Origin: Acephala macrosclerotiorum
Taxonomy: Eukaryota; Ascomycota; Leotiomycetes; Helotiales; Mollisiaceae
Assembly: GCA_014904845.1 (NCBI GenBank)
Contig: MU119216.1
Span: 1-64,000, forward strand
Length of the DNA: 64,000 nt
Direction: 5' to 3'
Position numbers and translations under genes: made by a program
Shown: in pieces, positions 1,422 through 14,981 of the stretch
Layout: each line of letters begins with the position of its first letter
How positions within the stretch are numbered: the first letter of the stretch is position 1
Notes under the pieces: generated by a model
The model's input: the letters and a program-made list of their open reading frames with translations, nothing else
What the model was told of the DNA's origin: nothing
Database searches by the model: none

Positions 1422-4129
1422 ATGACGGCCTCATTTGACGTTGAGGATGTGCTTTCGAAGCTCAACATCGTAGAGAAGGTCTCCTTGCTCGCAGGCAGGT
1501 TTACTCCTCAATCTCACACCGATCTTGCTGACAACCTACAGGTGCTGACTGGTGGCACACGGTTGCCATTCCTAAGCACGGGGTGCCATCAATTCGTGTA
1601 TCAGATGGGCCCAATGGAGTTCGTGGGACCAGATTCTTCAACGGTACTCCCGCTGCTTGCTTCCCCTGTGGAACGGCTCTTGGTGCAACTTGGGATGTCG
1701 AACTGCTCCGGAAAGCAGGCGTTGTCATGGGAGAGGAGAGCAAGGCGAAGGGGTCACACGTGATTCTTGGCCCTACGATCAATATGCAACGTTCTCCGTT
1801 GGGTGGAAGAGGATTCGAAAGTCTGAGTGAGGATCCAGTGCTTGCTGGTCTTGGAGCTGCTGCGTTGGTCAATGGTATTCAGGAGACTGGTGTCGTGGCT
1901 GCAATCAAGCACTTCGTTTGCAATGATCAGGAGCATGAGCGGAATGGGACAGATGCTCTTGTCACGGATAGAGCATTAAGAGAGATTTATGCCCTGCCTT
2001 TTCAGTTGGTGGTCAAAGAGTCTGATCCGGGCTGCTTCATGTCGTCATACAACAAGGTTAACGGTACTCATGTCAGTGAGAATCCCAAGATCTTGGGCGA
2101 TATCCTGAGAAAAGAATGGGGCTGGAAGGGGTGTGTGATGAGTGACTGGTAAGCTCGATCTTCTGTAAAATTTGGAAGCGCTGCTAATTCTCTTTAGGTG
2201 GGGCACTTACTCGACGTCCGAAGCCATCAATGCTGGACTCGATCTCGAGATGCCAGGTGCCACGAAATGGCGTGGTGAATTGTTAATCCAAGCTATTGGT
2301 GTGAACAAAGTGCCAATGCACGTTCTCGATGAGCGAGCACGGAATGTGCTCAACCTCGTTAACCGATGTGCTGCAGCCAAGGTTCCAGAACGTGCTGAAG
2401 AGAAGACAGCGGACACGCCAGAGACAACTGCTTTACTGCGGAAGATCGGCGCCGAGTCTATTGTCTTAATGAAGAATGAGGACAGCATCCTTCCCTTGAA
2501 GAAAGACAAAAAGGTGAGTGCCTCCGATGAGATCAAATTTTGAGTATCGACTCACTATTCATAGACTCTGATCCTCGGTCCCAATGCCAAGATTGCCCAA
2601 TACCACGGAGGTGGATCAGCCTCCCTCGCAGCCTACTACGCCGTGACACCATTCGATGGAATTAAATCCCAACTCTCCAATGCACCAGAATTCACAGTCG
2701 GCTGCTACGCCCACAAGGAACTCCCACTCCTCGGCAACATGCTCCACACCGAAAAAGGCGAGCCAGGTGTCTCATGGAAAGCATACAATGACCCACCCTC
2801 AGTCAAGGATCGAAAGCCCGTCGACGAGCTCGTGCTCAAAAAGACGGAATTCTTGCTTATGGATTACAACCCAGAAACAATCAAGAGCCCCCTTTGGTAT
2901 GCTGATATCGAAGGTTATTTCACCGCGGAAGAGGATTGCGAGTTTGAGATGGGTCTTGGTGTTTATGGCACCGCGAAGCTGCTCGTTGACGGGAAGTTGC
3001 TCATTGATAATGAGACGAAGCAGAAGAAGGGAACACTCTTTTTCAATTGTGGGACTGTGGAAGAGAAGGGTATTGTGCCTGTAAAGAAAGGGCAGAAGTA
3101 CCACGTCAAGGTCGAGTTCGCTTCCGCACCAACCTGCAAGCTGAACCAGGGCAATAATGTGTTGTTTGGTGGTGGTGCGGTGAGGATCGGTGGTGCGAAG
3201 GTCATTGATGCTGATAAGGAGGTTGAGCATGCTGCTGCGTTGGCGAAGGATGCTGACCAGGTCATTATCTGTGCTGGTTTAAACGTAAGCTTTCCCTCTC
3301 TTTCTATTCATACTCAGCTCAAACCTAATGCTAACGAAATCAGTACGACTGGGAAACCGAAGGCTCAGACCGCGAATCAATGAGTCTTCCTGGACACATG
3401 GACAAATTGATCGCCGCAGTCTCAGCAGCAAACCCCTCAACAGTCGTGGTCATGCAATCTGGCACCCCAGTTGCCATGCCCTGGATCAGTTCGGTGAAAG
3501 CACTCGTCCACGCCTGGTACGGCGGGAACGAAACTGGCAACGCCATCGCCGATGTCTTATTCGGAGCCACTAACCCCTCAGCGAAACTCCCACTATCGTT
3601 CCCGAAGCGGCTGCAAGACAATCCTACCTTCCTAAACTACCGTACCGAGCGAGGACGGACACTTTATGGTGAGGATATCTACATCGGCTACCGCTGGTAC
3701 GAGATGCTTGATCTCCCTGTCCTCTTTCCCTTCGGCCACGGTTTAAGCTACACCACATTCTCATACTCCGATCTGTCTGTCACCATAACCGACAAAGATC
3801 TGAAATTCTGTGTCAAAGTCACAAATACTGGCTCCCTCGCTGGAGGAGAGGTGGTGCAAGTCTACGTCTCTCAAGAAAAACCTAGCATCAAGAGACCAAA
3901 GAAGGAGTTAAAGGGATTCAAGAAAGTGGTTTTGGAGAAGGGAGAGAGTAAGGTTGTTGAGGTGAGCGTGGAGACAAAATACGCGACGAGTTTCTGGGAC
4001 GAGGTAAGGAGCGCTTGGATTAGTGAAAGTGGGAAGTATGAGGTTAGCGTGGGAGGGACAAGTGAGGAGGGTGGATTGTTGAAGGCGGGCTTTGAGGTTG
4101 GGAAGACGGGGTGGTGGAATGGATTGTGA
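1422..4129 (+). CDS. GH3 beta-glucosidase, intracellular type with PA14 insertion
   Basis: Hydrolyses terminal beta-linked glucose from oligosaccharides or glycosides. Exons: 1422-1494, 1542-2148, 2198-2513, 2565-3284 and 3344-4129, giving 833 residues. The N-terminal GH3 TIM barrel carries [19 protein letters not shown] and KHFVCNDQE, and ends in VMSDWWG, where Asp226 is the expected catalytic nucleophile. A PA14 carbohydrate-binding insertion follows at about 395-550, then the second GH3 domain ([15 protein letters not shown]) and a C-terminal fibronectin-III-like domain (about 720-800). No signal peptide is visible, so cytoplasmic action is likely, for example on imported cellobiose or plant glucosides. 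The first intron only keeps frame with a GC donor at 1495-1541. An ordinary GT donor at 1499 shifts the frame. Confidence 0.93.
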
Positions 4130-4578
4130 GCGCACGAGAGGTAGCGATGAAATAGATGAGATGATAATTGAATACATAAAGGTTCAAGTTTTCAAGAATG
4201 TAAACGTGCTCTTGCCGTACTATTTCCTCAAAACTCGGTCAATGCTCTCAAGACTTGGTATCCTCAAAATTTAGTACCCTCACTAGCAACAATCCTCTCA
4301 ACAGCAGAGACCATCAAATTAGAGTATCTGCGAAAGCTAGTGGCCTCACAAACGGATACATATGACAGCTGATACCTTCTAAAGACAGGGGTGTTTCTTT
4401 ATTATCGCTCGCTTAGCCCCCATTTTTCGCTTACATTGTCCCAGTTTACTTCACACATTCGAGCTCGATCGCTGGGATTTTAGCAGCTGGACTTTGAGAG
4501 CTTAATGTTTGGGGTTTTAAAGTCTTCGATGTTACACGATGTGAATTCAATGCTTTGGATGTCCGCCATTTGCATTAA
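4130..4578. other. Gene-free stretch between GH3 gene and mariner element
   Basis: 3' untranslated DNA of the GH3 gene running into spacer. No open frame with coding character and no repeat was seen. Confidence 0.5.
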
Positions 4579-4612
4579 CGAGCTGGGCTTCACGGGTCTG
4601 TGCTCACAGGCT
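4579..4612 (+). repeat. Left terminal inverted repeat of the mariner element
   Basis: 34 bp starting CGAGCTGGGCTTCACG. It pairs with 5825-5858 with a single G/A difference. Confidence 0.9.
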
Positions 4613-4708
4613 ACTCAGCAACTTCGAACATTAAATGCATGTCTAATTGATAATTTAATTAGGAGTTGACCACCCATGGCGCTTTATGAGCACAGTGACC
4701 CAATGCTC

Positions 4709-5767
4709 TTACTTCAAAACTAGCTTATTTATCCATTCCTGGGATATAGCATTCCATTCCTCTAAAACTGCTTGCCTTATCTCTGCCTCAGTAGTGAGTT
4801 GGTGCAATCGTCTATAAAAAGTCTGTTTAATCCATCGCCAGCACTTCTCTATTGGATTCATGTCTGGAGAAGTAGAAAAGTGAGACATAAGTATAATGCC
4901 GTGTTTTGTGCGAAAGCGCTAGTAGCAATTAGTGCTGGATTTATGCCCATGAGTCGAGTTTCCATCTTCTATGAATAAAGGTTCTACAGAAGGTCGTAAA
5001 GTATGAGTGATAAGAGCAAAGGCTTCGATGATAGGTTGTATGTGATACTCGAGGACTTGGGCGAGGTAATCGACTTGTTTGAATGCTCTATTCTTCTTTG
5101 TTCCCTCGATAAATAAGAGCGGACTTTTGTAGCCATATCTAATTGCGCTCCAAGAATTTACTGGTATTGTGTGACCGCGGTGAAACTGATGCTGAATACA
5201 ATTCTCACAGTATCTCTCCGTCTTGTCCCTAGTAACTCTCTCTTTGGCAGATCTGCTTCCCACGAGAAATGTAATCTCATTAGACTATAGCACTTTCAAC
5301 CATTCTATCGTCCAAAAGATATGCGCCATAGTCCAAACAAAGCGAGCAGTAACTTGAGCAAGAGTCATATATAGTTTCTAGTAAGTCACATATCGATAAT
5401 AATCTCGTTGGTGGAGCCGGCGTTCCAATATCTAAATAGAGCATTTCAATTTTAGCTCTTCTTGTAGCTTTGGCCATTGTAAAATGCGATATTCCCATGT
5501 TTCGGCACAATATAAGATAATCTTATCTATTTGTGCATTCGATAAGAGATAGGCAGGGCCCGTTCGATTAAAGCGATAGCGCTCGGGGTTGAAGTATCGA
5601 AGGATCTTTCGAATGGTGCTTGCACTTAGTTTATATCGATTGGCAATAGCGCAAATAGGCACTTTTTCGAACTAATGCAATTGGCGAATTGCCTTTTTAT
5701 GCTTCGTTCGTATTTCATCGCTTTTCTTATGCTGGAAGTCAAATAGTAGGGGAGTATTAAGAGTCAT
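4709..5767 (-). pseudogene. Broken Tc1/mariner transposase
   Basis: On the minus strand an ATG at 5767 opens a transposase interrupted by in-frame stops, including one about 33 codons in, one between the HTH and catalytic parts, and one soon after HGHKS. Recognisable pieces in order: a helix-turn-helix segment (AIANRYKLSASTIRKIL); a DDE core with FIEDGNSTHGHKS, the usual second catalytic Asp region; and near the C-terminus SPDMNPIEKCWRWIKQ, the DNPIE-type box holding the third acidic residue. The last two segments share one frame and are separated only by a stop. The protein cannot be made full length, so the element would need an outside transposase to move. Confidence 0.85.
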
Positions 5768-5824
5768 GATGATCAATGAGGTTTTTGATGTTTTTTGGTT
5801 CCTAAAAATTTAGGCAGCAAAAAT

Positions 5825-5858
5825 AGCCTGTGAGCATAGACCCGTGAAGCCCAGCTCG
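5825..5858 (-). repeat. Right terminal inverted repeat of the mariner element
   Basis: Reverse complement of 4579-4612 with one mismatch. TAA follows directly outside, as it does at the left end. Confidence 0.9.
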
Positions 5859-5962
5859 TAAGTAGAGAACAATTCCGCCCCGCTATCAAGATTGAACAGT
5901 CCATCAAAGTCAATGATAGCTACAATCCGCGAAGCCAAGGGCTCTCGCTGCCCATAAACTCT

Positions 5963-7722
5963 TCAAACCCTCTCTCCATCCTTCTCCTCCTCCCTCTCCT
6001 TCTTCTCCTTCTCTTTCCTCTTCGCTTTCTCCCTCTTCTCCCTCCTCCACCTCGGACCCCACCTAATAACCACCCACAACATCGGACTCAAGACCACATA
6101 CAACAACCCAATAAACGTATACGCCCAACCCAACCCTATCGCATCCGTCATCGGTACAATGAGTGCCGTCGCTCTAGCCCCAAGTAAACACCTAATCAAA
6201 TTAAAAGCCGCTGTTGCCGTCCCGGCCCGTCCCGGATTAATATCCACGATGATGATTGAGATGCATTGCGTTGAAGCAATGAGTCCATATCCTTGAGTAA
6301 ACAACATGATAGCTGGACCTGCGACCGAGACTTTGAAATGCATGATCCAGCCGTAGATGATAGTTGATATACAAGAAAGAAGCAAGAATGGGATCGCGAC
6401 TTCGAGTCTTGCTCTCTCAATCGGGAAGTTGGTCAAATCTTGCATCTTCCGTTTCTGAACCACGATTCCGAGTCTCTTTGCATGCCGAGCATAGTTCCAA
6501 TCGATGAATTTTCCCTGCGTGAAAGCTGCCACGATCGATCCTCCGGCGATGGGGAGATACATCAATCCGACTTTTAAATCGTCGTATCCGTAGATTTCTT
6601 TGAGTTGGGACGGCATGCCTGACATCACGGCGTAGAACCCTGCGTAGACAATGCTAGCGAAGAAGAGGATGATGAAACATTCTTTCTCGAAAGCAACGAC
6701 GAGGGTATCGAATGGATTTGGGAATCGTAGTTTACCCCTTTGCTTCTTCAACGCGTCTCTTTCGGCGTAATCTGGTGGGCCGAGACCAGCTTTCTCGCGA
6801 CGTTTCTTATCGATATGGTTCATGAGTGAACGGTTCCAAGTGGGAGGAGGCACCGAACCGTCGCCTACTATCTTTCGGCAAGTTTCCGGCATGAACAGTA
6901 GCATTGGAATGAAGAAAGCTCCTGCGAGGATTGCTAGGAACCAGAATATCCATTTCCAGCCTGCGTACTGACTTAGTATCCCACCTAGAATGGGACCAAG
7001 AGACGGAGCGAGGATGGTTGCGGAAGATGTGATGCCGATGTAGATTCCTCGTTCGGCAGATGTAGCGATATCAGCTATGACAGCATTCGCGAGAGCAACG
7101 GTGCCGGATGAACCTGCTGATTGAACCATACGCAGGAGGAGGAGGGCGACGTAATTATTCTGTAGTGCGAGGGCGATGTCGGCAATGATGTAGATCGTGA
7201 AGCTGACTATGTACCCGGGACGACGACCTGCTGTGTCGGACAAGTTGCCTATGAATGCTGGAGCTATGGCTTGGAAAATCTGTTGCGTTGGAGTGTTAGT
7301 TCTGGGTACGTGAGGCGAATAGGGGTAGCGAGATGTTGAAAAACGAACCATGTAAGTTGTCATCGTTAAATTGATTTTGCTGTTGCTGACGTGGAGATCT
7401 TTGGCGATGCTGGTGATGGCTGGGAAATAGATTTGTGTTGTGAAGGGAGAGAAGAAAGCTCCCATCGTTGCAGAAAAGACGATGAATTTCTTTTCCCAAT
7501 TGGTGAAGCTGGAGTAGTCGTTCTCGGTAGGGACTCTCTGGAGTTCATTGGCTGGGACGACTTGGTCCTCTGTTTCAGGGGAGATCTTTTCCCCTTTGTT
7601 GGTCTTGGTGACTTGACTGCTATCTTGAGAGCCCTTGTTCTTTCGTTGTCGGTCTTTTGATTCTGCTTCTCGTCACGTCCGTCGTTAAGCGACACGCTGG
7701 GTTGCTCTTTGCCATCGCCCAT
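5963..7722 (-). CDS. MFS drug:H+ antiporter-like transporter (DHA1/Qdr-like)
   Basis: A plasma-membrane transporter of the major facilitator superfamily with about 12 membrane segments. It likely exports small toxic compounds or organic cations by proton antiport; the substrate is not deducible. Motif A is seen as GNLSDTAGRRPGY, and the motif C-like LAPSLGPILGG lies in the fifth helix. The basic/acidic C-terminal tail (about 40 residues) is built of K, R and E repeats. A clear intron is 7280-7348. The conserved core starts around FTNWEKKFIVF, in a different frame from the good ATG at 7722 (context CACCATGG). A 107-bp intron at 7570-7676 would reconcile the frames, giving 527 residues, but its signals are weak. 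A frameshift is the alternative. The family call is sure; the first exon is not. Confidence 0.8.
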
Positions 7723-8096
7723 GGTGCTTAAAGCTCAAGAGAGTTGTTGAAAGGGTCGCCCAGTCAGAAGAGAGAGAGAGAGAGCAAAAATCCTGGGAGT
7801 AGAAGTCATATGCTCATCGAGCGGAATGGTTACCAAAGCGTGCTCTTAACCTAATCAAAATTTGATGTCGGAAAGTCTTCAACCGCTGGCTATTAAGGCC
7901 GATGATTATCTCCATATCGGCAGGCTGCAGCACCGTATTTATGCAGGGTCTCGCCGCATACCGCTCTGAGAACAGGCACTGGATTGACCAGTAAGAAGCG
8001 GCCATCGGAGCGACAACGGCATTGGTGAAAAGGGGCCCTTGACTCAATTATGTGCTTGTACTACCAAACACTATTTATCCCGTGAATAGTTGCGCA
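7723..8096. other. Gene-free stretch with a short GA microsatellite
   Basis: Spacer between the MFS promoter side and the 3' end of the caspase/HET gene. A (GA)n run lies near 7769-7783. No gene seen. Confidence 0.5.
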
Positions 8097-10970
8097 TTAT
8101 AAAAGCTCAAACTCTTGCATTCTCCCTTCTCGCGCCTCCTCACTGACAGCCATTGCCTCTCCATCCATCATCCCATAGATAAAGCACTCTCCAATCAACT
8201 TCCAAGCCGCACGTCTTCCTTCATGAGGACGAAGTACGACTGGAACACTGCATCCGTAAAGGATACAAATAGAATCCCCAAGCTTTGTCTCGCTGGGGAC
8301 GAGAGCAAAAAACGGTCCTCCGTTGTTCTTTGATGTCCTGACATACCTCCTATTCCAAATGATATCGCGAACCCGCTTCAAAAACATGGTTGCCATGCTT
8401 GGGTAATCTTGAGTGATCTTCTTCGATAGTGTATTCAAGGGATCATTTGGTAGTGGGTTCTTTAAGCAGAACAAACAAGCAGCATGATACCAATTTGGTG
8501 TAGGCACCCCATCCGGACCTCGATCAGCGACCATTGTTCTCCAGAAGTGATCAGGCACAATGTTATCCAGCTGCTCACAGTCACCAATGGTTAGCCAGTC
8601 TTTGGGTATTCTTCCATTGGTAGCAGTGGATCCAATAAATGTGGCTGTATGGAGCGATTCAAGCTGGAAGCCCCCAACGATCATTGAACGATCACTGACC
8701 AGATCTTCCGCATCTGCTTTAATATGCCCAAAGCTTGCGAGAGGGGTAGTGCCTAGTGCAGCATTATAATACCTTCTAGAAGGTAGTCCGACCAAGCTGT
8801 CTCCATACCAACGGCCATCGTGTTGGAAAGGCAATCCCGATATCGTTCCAATCCATGACGGGAGGTTGGCATATGAAGGAGCCCAGTGGCAACATATGAT
8901 GTCTATTGACTTCGATTCGGTGATGCAATACTTAACGAATCGCTCGAAAGTGTCCAGTGTTGATTCCGCGTAGTCAACGACGAATGGAGTGTTGGTGTAA
9001 GTTGCTAATGAGAGCAAAGAATATATAGTATCAAGTGGAGATGTTGTCAGCAATCCAGGGAACGAGAGTACCAGCGTTTCTAAGCTTGCCAACCTAGTCA
9101 TGCTCGAACCATCAATCGATTTTCGATACAGTCTTCGAGATGCGTCGACTATGGAGTACATGTTATAAGTCCGTACATCTCGTAACCAAATTGGCCTTGT
9201 GATAGCAAACGAACTAATGTGCCCCGGAAAGATTTCTGGCAGTACATCTTCGGATCTGGACAAGAACAGAAGGACTGCTTCAGAAAAGACTGTCCAGTCG
9301 ACCGTATCAGAGCCACAGTGCAGCACAGCCCTCTTCGCAACAATGAACTCTTGTATCAACCAGCGCCTGTCGAAGTAGGGACTAGTCATTAGGATCATAA
9401 GCGCAGTCCATGCCCTTGCGTTCTGATCAGCTGGAGCTTCAACTAATTTTTCCAGTTTCTGGATGTCCAAGAGTTGTGGGATGAGATCGAATGCAAGATC
9501 GCTGTCTGGATATGAATTTCCAAGCCAGACATGGACTATTGAAGCGTTGCAAAAAAAATCTGGCATGTGAAACACCTGCTGACTTAGCTCGCGGGAATCC
9601 TGCCGGTTTATGCAGAGAACATCGACCCATAAAGCCACCGTTTCTGTTTTCTTCCGAAGGTGCCGAAGAGCAGAGTGAAGATGTGAAGAAATATTGGTTT
9701 GATAACCGTCGACTGTGATATTCATCAACCCAGGGCGTTCCCATCGGCAAGACAACGGCTCATACATTCCCTCCGAATGTATGTCCACAAGACTGAAGTA
9801 AGCTTCTAGGTCGGCATCGTCATTCTCGCTGGGAAAGAGATTCAGGACTCTGATCTCATCGTCTTGAAGCGGACAATATACCCTGCCGAACTCCTCAACA
9901 ATGCGAGGCCTCGTAGTTCCTGTCGTGCTGGCAGTTGTAGGAAAATGCAAAGACTTGGTAGGCAGTATCGACTCTTTGGGAACAACCTTGGCTGTCGTTG
10001 GAACCTCGAGTGGCGCTGATTTGTGCGTACTGGCTAAGGTTGCCTCTGGTACCGCGTCTATTTTTCGCTGCTGCTCTTGCGACGGAAGTGAAGGAGTCCT
10101 GGAATTTTGGGACAGTGAGGGTTGGGATTTTCGTTTTTTCTGGCGCTTCCCCAACATTATCATGGAGTTGGGTCGATCGCCGTAAAATACGGAATAATGG
10201 TGATGCTGAGGTGTAACTTTCTTAACGCCTGGTCGAGCTCGTTCATTGGCACGAGTGTTCCTCATTTCTGTTGTCAAATCGGCGGCACTGATTGCGGTCT
10301 CAATGGATCCTTCCAAGTGGTCGAGAAAAAAGGAGGTGAACGAGTCCGGGCCTTGTAACAGTGTCAAGTCTTCTCCATCGGTAGCGCAGATGACTTCAAA
10401 AATACTCGTACCATGAGCGGCGTTAATAAAGGCTCCTGCGTTACAGCAATCCAGAAGGTGAAGTATGTGTCCTTTCCAGCCATCCAAAAACAGGCTTTGA
10501 AGGCTGCTCCAATTTAGCGTCGCTTTGTTGACTGATTCCAACAGGTTTACATCAACATTTCCACTATCGAGGTCATGAGCTGGTGGCTTATATCATTAGA
10601 GTGGGCATAGTTACCGAGTCCAAAATAGGTCGTTCCTGTTAACTTTTCTCTTTGCATGCCCACTGTAGTAGATAACGGACAAAGCTTTCTCGCTATCGTT
10701 GTCGCCTTTGAATCGCAGCAGCTCTTTTGTAAGGCCGATATACGATTCATGAGGGGGCTTAATCGGAAGCGGGTATTCACTACACTCGTAGCCAAAAGAA
10801 CTGAATACGCTCTTCAATCTCAACACCGACTCGTAGAATTCCTTCTCGTCGTCCTCCCAGTATATCGTAAGGACGTTGACCTTTTCATAGTCAAACGTCT
10901 TCGGGACATATTTCTCGGAGCTCGATAGACCAGTATCGGTTCGTCGCAGCTGCGGAGCCTCGCCATCCAT
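8097..10970 (-). CDS. Caspase-like plus HET-domain fusion protein, putative cell-death protease
   Basis: Exons 10970-10615 and 10563-8097 (intron 51 bp) give 940 residues. Residues about 30-200 form a caspase-like (peptidase C14/metacaspase-type) domain. His105 lies in the strand VIYYSGHA and Cys159 in HLLDCCNAGAF, matching the His/Cys dyad positions of metacaspases. A low-complexity basic linker (about 230-345) follows. A HET domain spans about 386-540, with YEPLS, LWVDVLCINRQD and HVWLG, plus the downstream DTIYSLLSLA and VDY motifs seen in HET proteins. HET domains trigger cell death in fungal incompatibility. The gene is divergent from a gasdermin-like gene 596 bp away, which suggests it cleaves and activates that partner. 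I infer a cytosolic sensor/protease; its trigger is unknown. The start is the first in-frame ATG before the domain. Confidence 0.85.
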
Positions 10971-11215
10971 GTTGCACCGAGCCGTCAAATCTTCGACTAG
11001 TCAAAGTGCCAAACTCGCAATTACAGATCTCCTTCTAATCCACTTGATTATACAATCGCCGACAGCATTGCATGTGAACGAAAGTCGAGAGTTGCGGCTG
11101 ATATTCTGGTTTGAGCAGCGATAAGGATGGAAGAGTGTTGCATGGCTGATAATTGTGACCGCAACTGTCAGGTGCGCTTTGTGCCGTGTTTGTGAAACCG
11201 CACCTGAGGGGGGGG

Positions 11216-11220
11216 CCAAT
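11216..11220 (+). promoter_or_regulatory. CCAAT box in the divergent promoter
   Basis: CCAAT directly after a G run, about 350 bp upstream of the gasdermin-like start. A candidate HAP-complex site by sequence only. Confidence 0.4.
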
Positions 11221-11368
11221 CAAGAGAAGGATGAGGTGTCATTGCAGAAAGAAGTGCTGAGATGGATGTGGACTGCTGCACAGATCTCGATTGGGTATTA
11301 TGTCGCAGTGGCAGGGCGTCAGGCTGGCGCCTCACAGCTGCGGAGTACACCCAAGTTCAGGCTTGAGC

Positions 11369-11375
11369 TATAAAT
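11369..11375 (+). promoter_or_regulatory. TATA-like box of the gasdermin-like gene
   Basis: TATAAAT lies about 190 bp before the ATG at 11567 and is followed by a C/T- and CAA-rich leader. The distance is plausible for a fungal TATA box with a moderate 5' leader. Confidence 0.45.
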
Positions 11376-11566
11376 GCAGCCTCTGCATTGGCGGCGGAAG
11401 AAGGCCTGACTCCGCGCGAGTTCCCAACAAGCCGGGCGTTGCATGAATTGAATTGAGGAGCTCCCTTTCTTGTTCAGTTCCCATCCATTCTGGATCTGGT
11501 TAAGAAGTTGGTCTGTCTTCTAGCATTCACCGAACCCACAACAATAACAACAACAACAGCAGCAAC

Positions 11567-12562
11567 ATGGCTCTCTCTGAAGCTTATCGGAAGGCTATGG
11601 GTAGTTGGAACTATGGGTATCCGCTCTACAATCCCCAGTCGACGAAAGACCTCCATACTGGAATTTGCGGCTACCTAGATGGCAACGATGTCTGGCAGAC
11701 AATTGTGGACTTGGAATTCGACGATGTGGAGAAAATGGGCTTTACAGAATTTGTAGACTCGTTTTACCCTAAAACTCCTCAAAATGTCAACTGGAAAGCA
11801 AAGTTTTCTCAGGGCCTTAAAAAGATCGATATCGACCTAAGCGGCGGAGTATCTGCAGCGTCGCTGGGACTACCAGCGACGGTTACCGCCGCCACGAAAT
11901 GGGAGTGTCGCGGTGACGCTGGGGCAATTCTTATGTGCGACAATCCAGTGACGATCGAAGACATTGGAGCAAGCGATATATTCCTAAAATGGGCGAAGAC
12001 AAACTCGAAGAAACTGCGAAAGGATTACCCATCAGTGAAAAAGTTTTACGTCGTCACTCGAACGTATTCCTCCTCAGACATTCATCTCATCGCCTGGAAC
12101 GACTCTGACTTTATTGTTACGCTTGGCGTTTCTGGAAAAGTGGAAGGCGCTGGTGAGGCCAGTGGGACAGGAACATGGTCAAGAAGCAACACAACCCAAG
12201 GTTGGGAAAGCTTCCCTGCAGTATGATACCATCCGAGGCAGTTTAAAAGACAAGCCATTACTGACATTAAGCTTAGGGGGACACTGATGAGAAATATGTC
12301 GTCTTCTTCAGTGGAGTGATGATCAAAGTCATAGCGATAGGCCCAATCAAGACCGTAATTATGCACATTACTCTGTACTACTCTCATCATTCTGAAAGTT
12401 TCATAGTCCCTGGTCACATCTGTGAGCTCTGGCTCCAGCAGATTCCGCGGAGATGGCGACAAATTCTCGGTGGTTGATGAGGAAGAGGGCATGGAATACG
12501 AAGTTGAGCTAGAAAGCTTTGGAAAGACCCCTGAGGACCTTGCCAAAGAGGGTAAATTGTAG
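11567..12562 (+). CDS. Gasdermin-like pore-forming protein, putative cell-death executor
   Basis: Exons 11567-12220, 12277-12354 and 12407-12562 give 295 residues. Introns are 56 bp (branch TACTGAC) and 52 bp. The frame runs open through both junctions to TAG, which supports the model. Shared features with fungal gasdermin-like proteins (HET-Q1 and RCD-1 type), from memory, are ICGYLDG..W near residue 34, VTAATKWE mid-protein, and FYVVTRTYSS followed by a Gly-rich strand. FYVVTRTYSS resembles the VVTE strand of animal gasdermin N-domains. KYVVFFSGV comes next. The C-terminal tail of about 35 residues is acidic (DEEEGMEYEVELE) and could be the inhibitory piece removed on activation. There is no signal peptide. 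Expected role: after cleavage, oligomerises in the plasma membrane and kills the cell. The neighbouring caspase-like gene supports this. Family assignment is by pattern, not by search. Confidence 0.65.
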
Positions 12563-12966: not shown

Positions 12967-14184
12967 TTAGACCGTCATCTTGTCCAAGATCTTCAAAACA
13001 CCTCTGCCCTTTCCCTCTCCCTCGTCTAGTTCTTCCACTAGTCTTCTCGCTCTATCCAAGAGTGTGCTTAGAACCTTTCTGCAGTACTCGAAACTGCCCG
13101 TGCCTTCCATATAAGACACGGCGTATCGTTTCACTTGCTCGTCATCTGTTTTCTGCTTCAGGATGTTGAGAAGCTGCATATTCTCCGGTTTCGCTCTGAT
13201 GCTGTGAATAATGGGGAATGAAAATTTGCCCTCTGTCAGGTCTTCACAGAGACCTTTGTTGTGAGAGTACTCTGGTGAGGAGAGATTTTGGTAGTCATCT
13301 CGGATCTGGAAGATGATGCCCATGAGGTTGACTAGAGGAACGCAGTCCCTTTGTGATTGTTAGCTACGGAATTTAGGAAGGTTGAGGGAGATATACTTCA
13401 ACTTAGAGCTCTCCGCTTGCATGAGCTTGATCGCCAGTCTGAACAGGCCTCCAGTCTTATTACCGACCATCTCCAGGTAGTCGTCTTCGCTCGGACATGT
13501 AAGGGTATCTCTCCAAAACAGATCCATCCCCTGACCTCTGTGTAGGTTTAACAGCTCCTCGGTATAGATAGAAATAGCCTTCGGATTCTTCAGCTTCGTT
13601 AACTCTTGTAGGGCCAGGAAATAGACATAGTTCGCTGAGTTGATCGTCTGTGCTGTCCCGAAAATACTGTGTGCAACCGGTAATCCTCTCCGTAGTAGGG
13701 ACGAATCCTCCACATCATCCACCAGTAACGAAGCTGTATGTAGCATCCCCACCACCTTCGTTATAACCTCCAAGCTCTCCGCAGGAACACCCAGCCACTC
13801 ATTGAAAGCCATAATCAACTGCGACCGAATATCCTTTCCCGGATGTGCAAACAGATAGTCGTAGGGACCCAGCAAGACCTTCTCCTTCGTCGCAGACCAA
13901 CTACTCTTCCCTGTAAACGCCATATCATTCTTGTAGTACTTCGACGAGTCCGGACCACCCGAAGGCTGTATCGTGGGATTAACCGCATCCATATTCGCAA
14001 TCGACCTCTTCCTCTGAGAAATCCAGTCGCCTTCCGGAACAGGTTTTAGCACAGGCTTCGAAGCAACGTGGTTCAGTGCATTCTGGCCCGTCGAAGACGT
14101 TCTCGGAGGGATGGCGTTGGGAGATCTTAAGTTATCGTGAATCATTGAGGATGGACCTCGCTGAGAAAGGTTACTTTGATACAT
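12967..14184 (-). CDS. Geranylgeranyl diphosphate synthase
   Basis: Condenses isopentenyl diphosphate with allylic diphosphates to make C20 GGPP for protein prenylation, carotenoids and other isoprenoids. Exons 14184-13397 and 13348-12967 give 389 residues. The first Asp-rich motif is [15 protein letters not shown] (Asp156-Asp160), and the second is [10 protein letters not shown] (Asp280-Asp281). GKFSFPIIH and [11 protein letters not shown] are also typical. The roughly 95-residue N-terminal extension is normal for fungal al-3/ggs1 enzymes. Neighbours are housekeeping genes with no terpene cyclase, so I take it as the primary-metabolism enzyme rather than part of a diterpene cluster. Confidence 0.93.
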
Positions 14185-14981
14185 CGGATGGAAGCTCGAA
14201 GAGCCACGTTGCTATGAATCGTACTCGGTGGATTGGGGGGGGGGTCCGGTTCCTGAGCAGGCTGCAGGAATTAGCAAGGCTGATCGCTGTATTCCTTCCG
14301 TTCGATTCTCCGCATCCGCATCCGTTTGTTTGTCAGGATGGTCGTATTCTCGTGTGAAGGTGCAGAAGATGCGGTAGGACTTATATGATAGCAGAAAGCT
14401 GAATCAAGGTTTCTTAAGTGGTTGAGCGAAGTCTCTTGGTTAATGATCGAACGACCAACGTCACAGAGCCCTAATTCGCCTGGTGCCTTTTTTCACATGT
14501 CTACAGCTGACCTTCATCGATTTTCAGCGGCCGTACAGCTGACGTTGCCTGATTTGTGCGCTCACTCATGCTATGGATAATAGCTGTCTACAGCTGCGTA
14601 TTGGTCTTGATATGCCGATGCTGAGAGTTTCATCTTTGCTTGACCCTCAGATCCTTGAGAGACGTCATGAGAGCCGCTAGGCCAAAAAGGTAAGGCGGTC
14701 AGAAGCCCACGCTTTTCCGTTCCAGGCTCCTCGGTTCAATCCGTTGCTATGGTGAACCCTTCTGCCAGCTCACTTGGGGACGTAGACAACTTTGAGACCA
14801 AAGCTCCGGCTGTTTTGCGAAAAAGTCAACACACACAAACACTTTCCTTGCCCTTCTCTTCGCATTTCTGTATTAACATTTTGCCTGGCGTCTTCATTTT
14901 CACTGTTCATACGGCGCATCGAGCGACCTCTTTCCTACATCTGCAAATACCCAACCACGAAAACACAACAAATACATAAAC
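14185..14981. promoter_or_regulatory. Divergent promoter region of GGPP synthase and CDC14
   Basis: 797 bp without a gene. It holds a run of 10 G at about 14235-14244 in the GGPP synthase leader and several CAGCTG-type palindromes at about 14500-14600. No specific regulator site can be assigned. Confidence 0.45.

Follow-up and report, generated by a model that had tools for sequence, protein, structure and literature searches.

Two intact, divergently arranged genes of Acephala macrosclerotiorum, a helotialean fungus of the Mollisiaceae to which the GenBank entries of both proteins belong, are proposed here to work together in regulated cell death, in the manner of fungal gasdermin/protease pairs. 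They lie in a 64,000-nucleotide stretch of DNA (contig C15, positions 1-64000; hereafter the window) of a genome of 69.66 Mb in 778 contigs. One gene encodes a 940-residue protein in which an N-terminal caspase-like domain with its His-Cys dyad is fused to a HET domain. The other encodes a 295-residue protein that is related to small genes facing CHAT protease regions elsewhere in the same genome. The reading of the pair as a two-gene unit, in which a divergent caspase-HET protein replaces the usual S8 or CHAT protease, is given a probability of about two in three.

According to published reviews, some 80% of gasdermin genes in fungi cluster with protease genes, with S8 proteases accounting for ~63% and CHAT proteases for ~19%, and a TPR-bearing CHAT protease of Podospora is described as activating the gasdermin encoded next to it (PMC10197012; PMC12881547). 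The caspase-HET gene (BDZ45DRAFT_101627, P0003) occupies 8097..10970 on the minus strand, with the ATG at 10970 and the stop at 8097; exon 1 (10970-10615) and exon 2 (10563-8097) are separated by a GT..AG intron of 51 nt (10614-10564). The gasdermin-like gene (BDZ45DRAFT_722268, P0001) extends on the plus strand from the ATG at 11567 to the stop at 12562 in three exons (11567-12220, 12277-12354, and 12407-12562) with introns at 12221-12276 and 12355-12406. Each splice model is one among several options, and in both cases the chosen model equals the GenBank protein with 100% identity across 100% of its length. From ATG to ATG, the genes share a divergent intergenic region of 596 bp (10971..11566), so that a protease-domain gene adjoins the 295-residue gene well within the 10 kb used to define a gasdermin/protease cluster.

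The 295-residue protein and its protease neighbours

With 295 residues, the protein falls into the size range of fungal gasdermins (~240-300 aa); RCD-1, for instance, is reported to have 257 or 244 residues (PMC11760362). Among the relatives found, the nearest one is DL765_011723 from Monosporascus sp. GIB2 (P0002; 35% identity over 95%, E 5.5e-32). Besides the query gene, the protein searches, one of which scored the best 7992 candidates by common words, retrieved only this protein and one from the same genome (P0123, 277 aa). Three genes of the family were detected in the 69.66-Mb genome: the window gene, the gene of P0123 on contig C47 (locus L024), and one on contig C113 (locus L025). None of 180 pattern matches in viral contigs is a relative of the 295-residue protein.

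The last exon (12407..12562, plus strand) encodes a basic linker (SSRFRGDGDKF) followed by an acidic tail, which is proposed, from its charges, as a removable inhibitory segment. The net charge amounts to -9 over residues 260-283 and to -7 over the last 50 residues. Linker and tail are common to the window protein and the Monosporascus relative, the two sharing R258, G259, D262, K263, and F264. Weak rows returned for other family members were rejected, namely a glycosyltransferase (E 0.32) and a LysR regulator (E 0.043) in the library scans of P0002 and P0123, both unrelated, and, among PDB sequences, a list for P0123 (60 of 71 matches listed) that begins with an antibody chain (E 0.065) and a capsid protein as the sole row from a four-sequence profile (E 0.037), neither credible. 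The protein is called gasdermin-like for its size and its tail, the context of its family, and the arrangement of the genes, rather than for its fold.

The strongest evidence for a protease-partner relationship comes from the two other family members, whose neighbourhoods support it. At L025, the family gene (minus strand, first ATG at ~3442) faces a plus-strand open reading frame (ORF) of 1127 residues with its first ATG at 3829, which contains a CHAT domain (E 4.7e-28); ~386 bp lie between the first in-frame ATGs. At L024, the family gene (plus strand, first ATG at ~6547) faces a minus-strand ORF (4907-6229) that matches TPR models weakly, and next to this comes an ORF (1543-4731) bearing a CHAT domain (E 1.2e-31); the TPR and CHAT ORFs are assumed to represent one gene. 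The CHAT ORFs of both loci are related to each other. All three detected family genes thus face a caspase-clan protease, C14-like in the window and CHAT regions at L024 and L025. The genome holds at most 51 protease matches (15 CHAT, 13 C14, and 23 C14-like), and by our own calculation the chance of one lying within 600 bp of a given gene is 51 x 600 bp / 69.66 Mb, i.e. ~4e-4, so that pairing in three out of three cases is far beyond chance.

A search for recurring neighbours led to the same family. It covered 762 ORFs of at least 80 residues (E<=1e-5), taken from the window, from L024 and L025, and from 20 further caspase-like loci. Apart from the caspase genes, the pair of related CHAT ORFs, and small ORFs that overlap caspase genes in a different frame or on the opposite strand, one recurring family emerged, that of the 295-residue protein, present at the window, L024, and L025.

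The caspase-HET protein

On sequence grounds, the N-terminal domain of the 940-residue protein is a divergent C14-like caspase domain. It comprises residues ~27-220 (10260..10892, minus strand, interrupted by the intron) and is homologous to other matches in the genome, 23 in number (25 matches in total, two being the window's own exons). One of these relatives, L026, matches Peptidase_C14 over the cut-off (E 1.4e-6). The dyad characteristic of C14-like caspases, placed in SGH and DxC motifs, is present: alignments assign it to His105 (YYSGHA; codon 10656..10658, minus strand) and Cys159 (LLDCCNAG; codon 10443..10445, minus strand). Both residues are invariant (4/4) in a four-sequence alignment; in a six-sequence alignment the histidine is kept in 6/6 and the cysteine in 5/6, the catalytic cysteine being replaced in L030. 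A Pfam scan of the protein returned no C14 match even at E<=10, and neither a CHAT nor an S8 match at the same threshold; the NCBIfam model caspase_w_EACC1 aligned to residues 96-173 with E 6.7e-6 and 25.7 bits, below its curated cut-off of 140. The best PDB row, a weak one, is metacaspase-4 (E 0.26), and PADLOC gave a weak caspase row (E 0.022).

The HET domain is unambiguous (PF06985, residues 386-524, E 3.8e-21, 76.4 bits against a cut-off of 22.5; 9348..9764, minus strand). It is followed by a C-terminal region (residues 525-940; 8100..9347, minus strand) whose predicted fold is mostly of high confidence. The precomputed annotation assigns PF26639, presumably a HET-6 barrel family, to the 940-residue protein. 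In the AlphaFold model, residues 343-940 are mostly of high confidence and the caspase part is poor; the linker between caspase and HET (residues 221-342) is of low confidence, with block means of the predicted local distance difference test (pLDDT) of 30-38 up to residue 340. Structure searches with this model, including residues 525-940, were uninformative. Among the best 120 of 162 protein matches, the 119 other relatives are 27-42% identical to the 940-residue protein in their best local alignments. HET domains are expanded in this genome, with 620 first-look candidates, of which 150 were scored and listed, all over the cut-off.

These results bear out most of the original prediction at the gene level: the coordinates and lengths given for two divergent genes 596 bp apart are exact and both models equal GenBank proteins, histidine and cysteine stand at the positions 105 and 159 named for the dyad, and HET and caspase do share one polypeptide. 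The acidic C-terminal tail ascribed to the 295-residue protein is likewise found.

C14-like caspases elsewhere in the genome

The C14-like domain is modular: at L026 it is read with a zinc finger, at L040 with a GMC oxidoreductase, at L044 with a weak kinase match, and at L036 with a HET domain. Twenty of the 23 other caspase-like matches were examined as 9.9-kb stretches with uneven flanks: L037, for example, starts 1.2 kb before its match, and at L036 the stretch extends ~4.2 kb upstream of the gene and 1.4 kb beyond its downstream end. Two caspase-HET genes occur among these 21 caspase-like loci (the window and 20 others), the second at L036:4219-8491. There, two ORFs in one frame (4759-7128 and 7132-7782) are both matched by the HET profile, with an in-frame TAG inside the match that points to a pseudogene or an unrecognised intron. 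The intron predicted between the SGH and DCC motifs of L036 agrees in phase and place with that of the window gene; by eye, a hydrophobic stretch between the domains and AT-rich flanks were also seen.

On four contigs (C184, C33, C159, and C357), Pfam C14 matches and CHAT matches are no more than ~7 kb apart, whereas ~0.04-0.06 such cases would be expected by chance according to our own calculation; these neighbours are possible CHAT/C14 protease modules. At C159:19800-23400 (L046), a CHAT reading frame with one internal TGA lies tail to tail with a C14 ORF of 657 residues.

Proposed mechanism and alternative explanations

If the two genes act together, the short acidic tail at the C-terminus of the 295-residue protein would keep it inactive, and the 940-residue protein would serve as a sensor-protease that perceives a cue of damage or non-self through its HET domain and the long region behind it. 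Perception might cluster the 940-residue molecules and thereby activate the N-terminal C14-like caspase. Metacaspases prefer Arg or Lys at P1. The caspase would remove the tail of the 295-residue protein, the probable cleavage site being behind Arg256 or Arg258 of the conserved linker, with a loss of 37-39 residues. The freed N-terminal part of the 295-residue protein would then oligomerise into lytic pores. The gasdermin fold, tail inhibition, cleavage and its site, sensing, and pore formation are all predicted elements of this scheme.

Several results weigh against it. The caspase-HET/295-residue pair is known from one genome. A profile built from the four known members of the 295-residue family detected no member in any of the 20 other caspase-like 9.9-kb stretches, L036 included. 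The caspase domain is found in 0/119 of the other relatives among the best 120 of 162 matches to the 940-residue protein, a negative limited by the incompleteness of that set for caspase-HET genes, since L036 is absent from it although its pieces total ~287 bits against 214 for the last row. The paralogue P0123 is devoid of an acidic tail (net +3 over the last 50 residues). Attempts to recognise a gasdermin were also unsuccessful: scans of P0001, P0002, and P0123 against Pfam, PADLOC, and NCBIfam gave no credible gasdermin match, and none at all for P0001; PDB sequence searches with exon 1 of P0001, the four-sequence profile, P0002, and P0123 were equally devoid of a credible gasdermin; and AlphaFold, provided with three sequences, returned an unusable model of the 295-residue protein (pLDDT 30.4). 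The gasdermin-like strand motifs of the original prediction found no direct confirmation: the amphipathic beta-moments are no higher than those of shuffled sequences in 3/3 family members, and none of the searches led to a known gasdermin. Its pyroptosis-like two-gene module stands in part: the divergent protease/partner pair, the published layout, and the two paralogues facing CHAT regions speak for it, and the lack of a detectable partner in the 9.9-kb stretches of the 20 other caspase-like loci speaks against it.

The pair could owe its arrangement to accident or to loose clustering, a caspase-HET gene having come to lie beside a gasdermin-like gene that had lost its original protease, with no joint action of the products. 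HET genes are extremely abundant here (the 620 candidates correspond to ~one per 112 kb), the caspase-HET gene of L036 has no member of the 295-residue family in its stretch, and the occurrence in a single genome suits this explanation as well. It is nevertheless considered unlikely: an accidental head-to-head caspase neighbour has the probability of ~4e-4 calculated above, caspase-HET genes are as rare as two in 21 caspase-like loci, and CHAT regions adjoin the family genes detected at L024 and L025. The failure of every fold and sequence test for a gasdermin, negative or inconclusive throughout, would suit a genuine protease-effector pair in which the 295-residue protein is a non-gasdermin executioner or substrate with the same layout. 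However, its size, the CHAT pairing of 2/3 detected members, and the short tail all fit fungal gasdermins, which are assumed to be divergent enough to escape sequence models, and a non-gasdermin identity thus appears improbable. It is also conceivable that the HET domain is itself the executioner, released through cleavage of the chain by its own caspase domain, while the 295-residue protein acts as a parallel effector or regulator instead of a substrate. Overexpressed HET domains are reported to be able to suffice for the induction of death (PMC12881547), and the long linker of residues 221-342, of low confidence in the model, could be self-cleaved. Such a scheme leaves the pairing of the 295-residue family with proteases unexplained and is regarded as very improbable. 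The protease-activated gasdermin-like unit remains the preferred reading of the pair.

Genomic surroundings

The pair is flanked on one side by an MFS transporter gene (5966-7672, minus strand) and on the other by a polyprenyl synthase gene (13363-14211, minus strand), beyond which a CDC14 gene is located. Between a GH3 gene and the MFS gene, positions 4580-5857 harbor a decayed transposon, which we take to be of the Tc1/mariner type and whose transposase-like frames, on the minus strand, are broken. Its inverted ends (4580-4613 and 5824-5857) differ, by eye, at one of 34 positions.

Significance

As a model for the gating of pore-forming death and for self/non-self recognition in fungi, gasdermin pairs are still young. 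If the proposed unit is real, a receptor uniting HET and caspase would join the abundant and poorly understood HET family to pyroptosis-like pores within two genes, and a single pair with a single catalytic mutant would suffice to test directly the role of HET upstream of death. A protease class could then also escape surveys that depend on Pfam: such a survey would count the window pair as lacking a protease, because Pfam misses its caspase domain. As a testable prediction, gasdermin genes reported without a protease may have caspase partners of this undetected kind. The wider proposal, that caspase-HET proteins constitute a third class of fungal gasdermin-activating receptors beside S8 and CHAT, combining a TIR-like HET domain and a C14-like caspase below Pfam detection in one chain and explaining part of the ~20% of gasdermin genes without a protease neighbour, is put forward tentatively and is rather doubtful.

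Comparison with known systems

Among the titles and abstract openings listed by searches of an open-access library, none deals with a caspase-HET/gasdermin pair, and priority is uncertain. A survey of Clave et al. from 2022 reportedly distinguishes 18 protease architectures, and the pairing may be among them.

The Podospora anserina HET-Q1/HET-Q2 system resembles the window pair in that a small gasdermin-type protein (HET-Q1, 278 aa) is encoded beside its activating protease and, as reported, loses 40 C-terminal residues (PMC10989679). HET-Q2 is an S8 subtilisin-like serine protease of 388 residues, whereas the protease part of the 940-residue protein is a caspase-like cysteine domain and is joined to HET; the window pair is known from its genes, and its cleavage and fold are predicted. 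The gasdermin/CHAT-TPR clusters likewise place a caspase-clan protease sensor divergently to a partner of 240-300 residues, and two such pairs with the 295-residue family exist in this genome. In the window, however, the protease domain is C14-like and N-terminal instead of CHAT, and the sensor half consists of HET and the C-terminal region instead of TPR repeats. Proteins with PF06985 and PF26639 share 27-42% identity with the 940-residue protein, but the N-terminal caspase sets it apart from all 119 listed, with L036 as one other caspase-HET gene found. Metacaspases and C14 proteins share the SGH and DCC dyad motifs with it, and its own-genome relatives reach Peptidase_C14 (E 1.4e-6), whereas the window protein itself stays below Pfam detection. 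In sum, the two-gene gasdermin/protease cluster is already known; what sets the present pair apart is a C14-like protease in place of the reported S8 or CHAT classes, together with the fusion of this protease to a HET domain.

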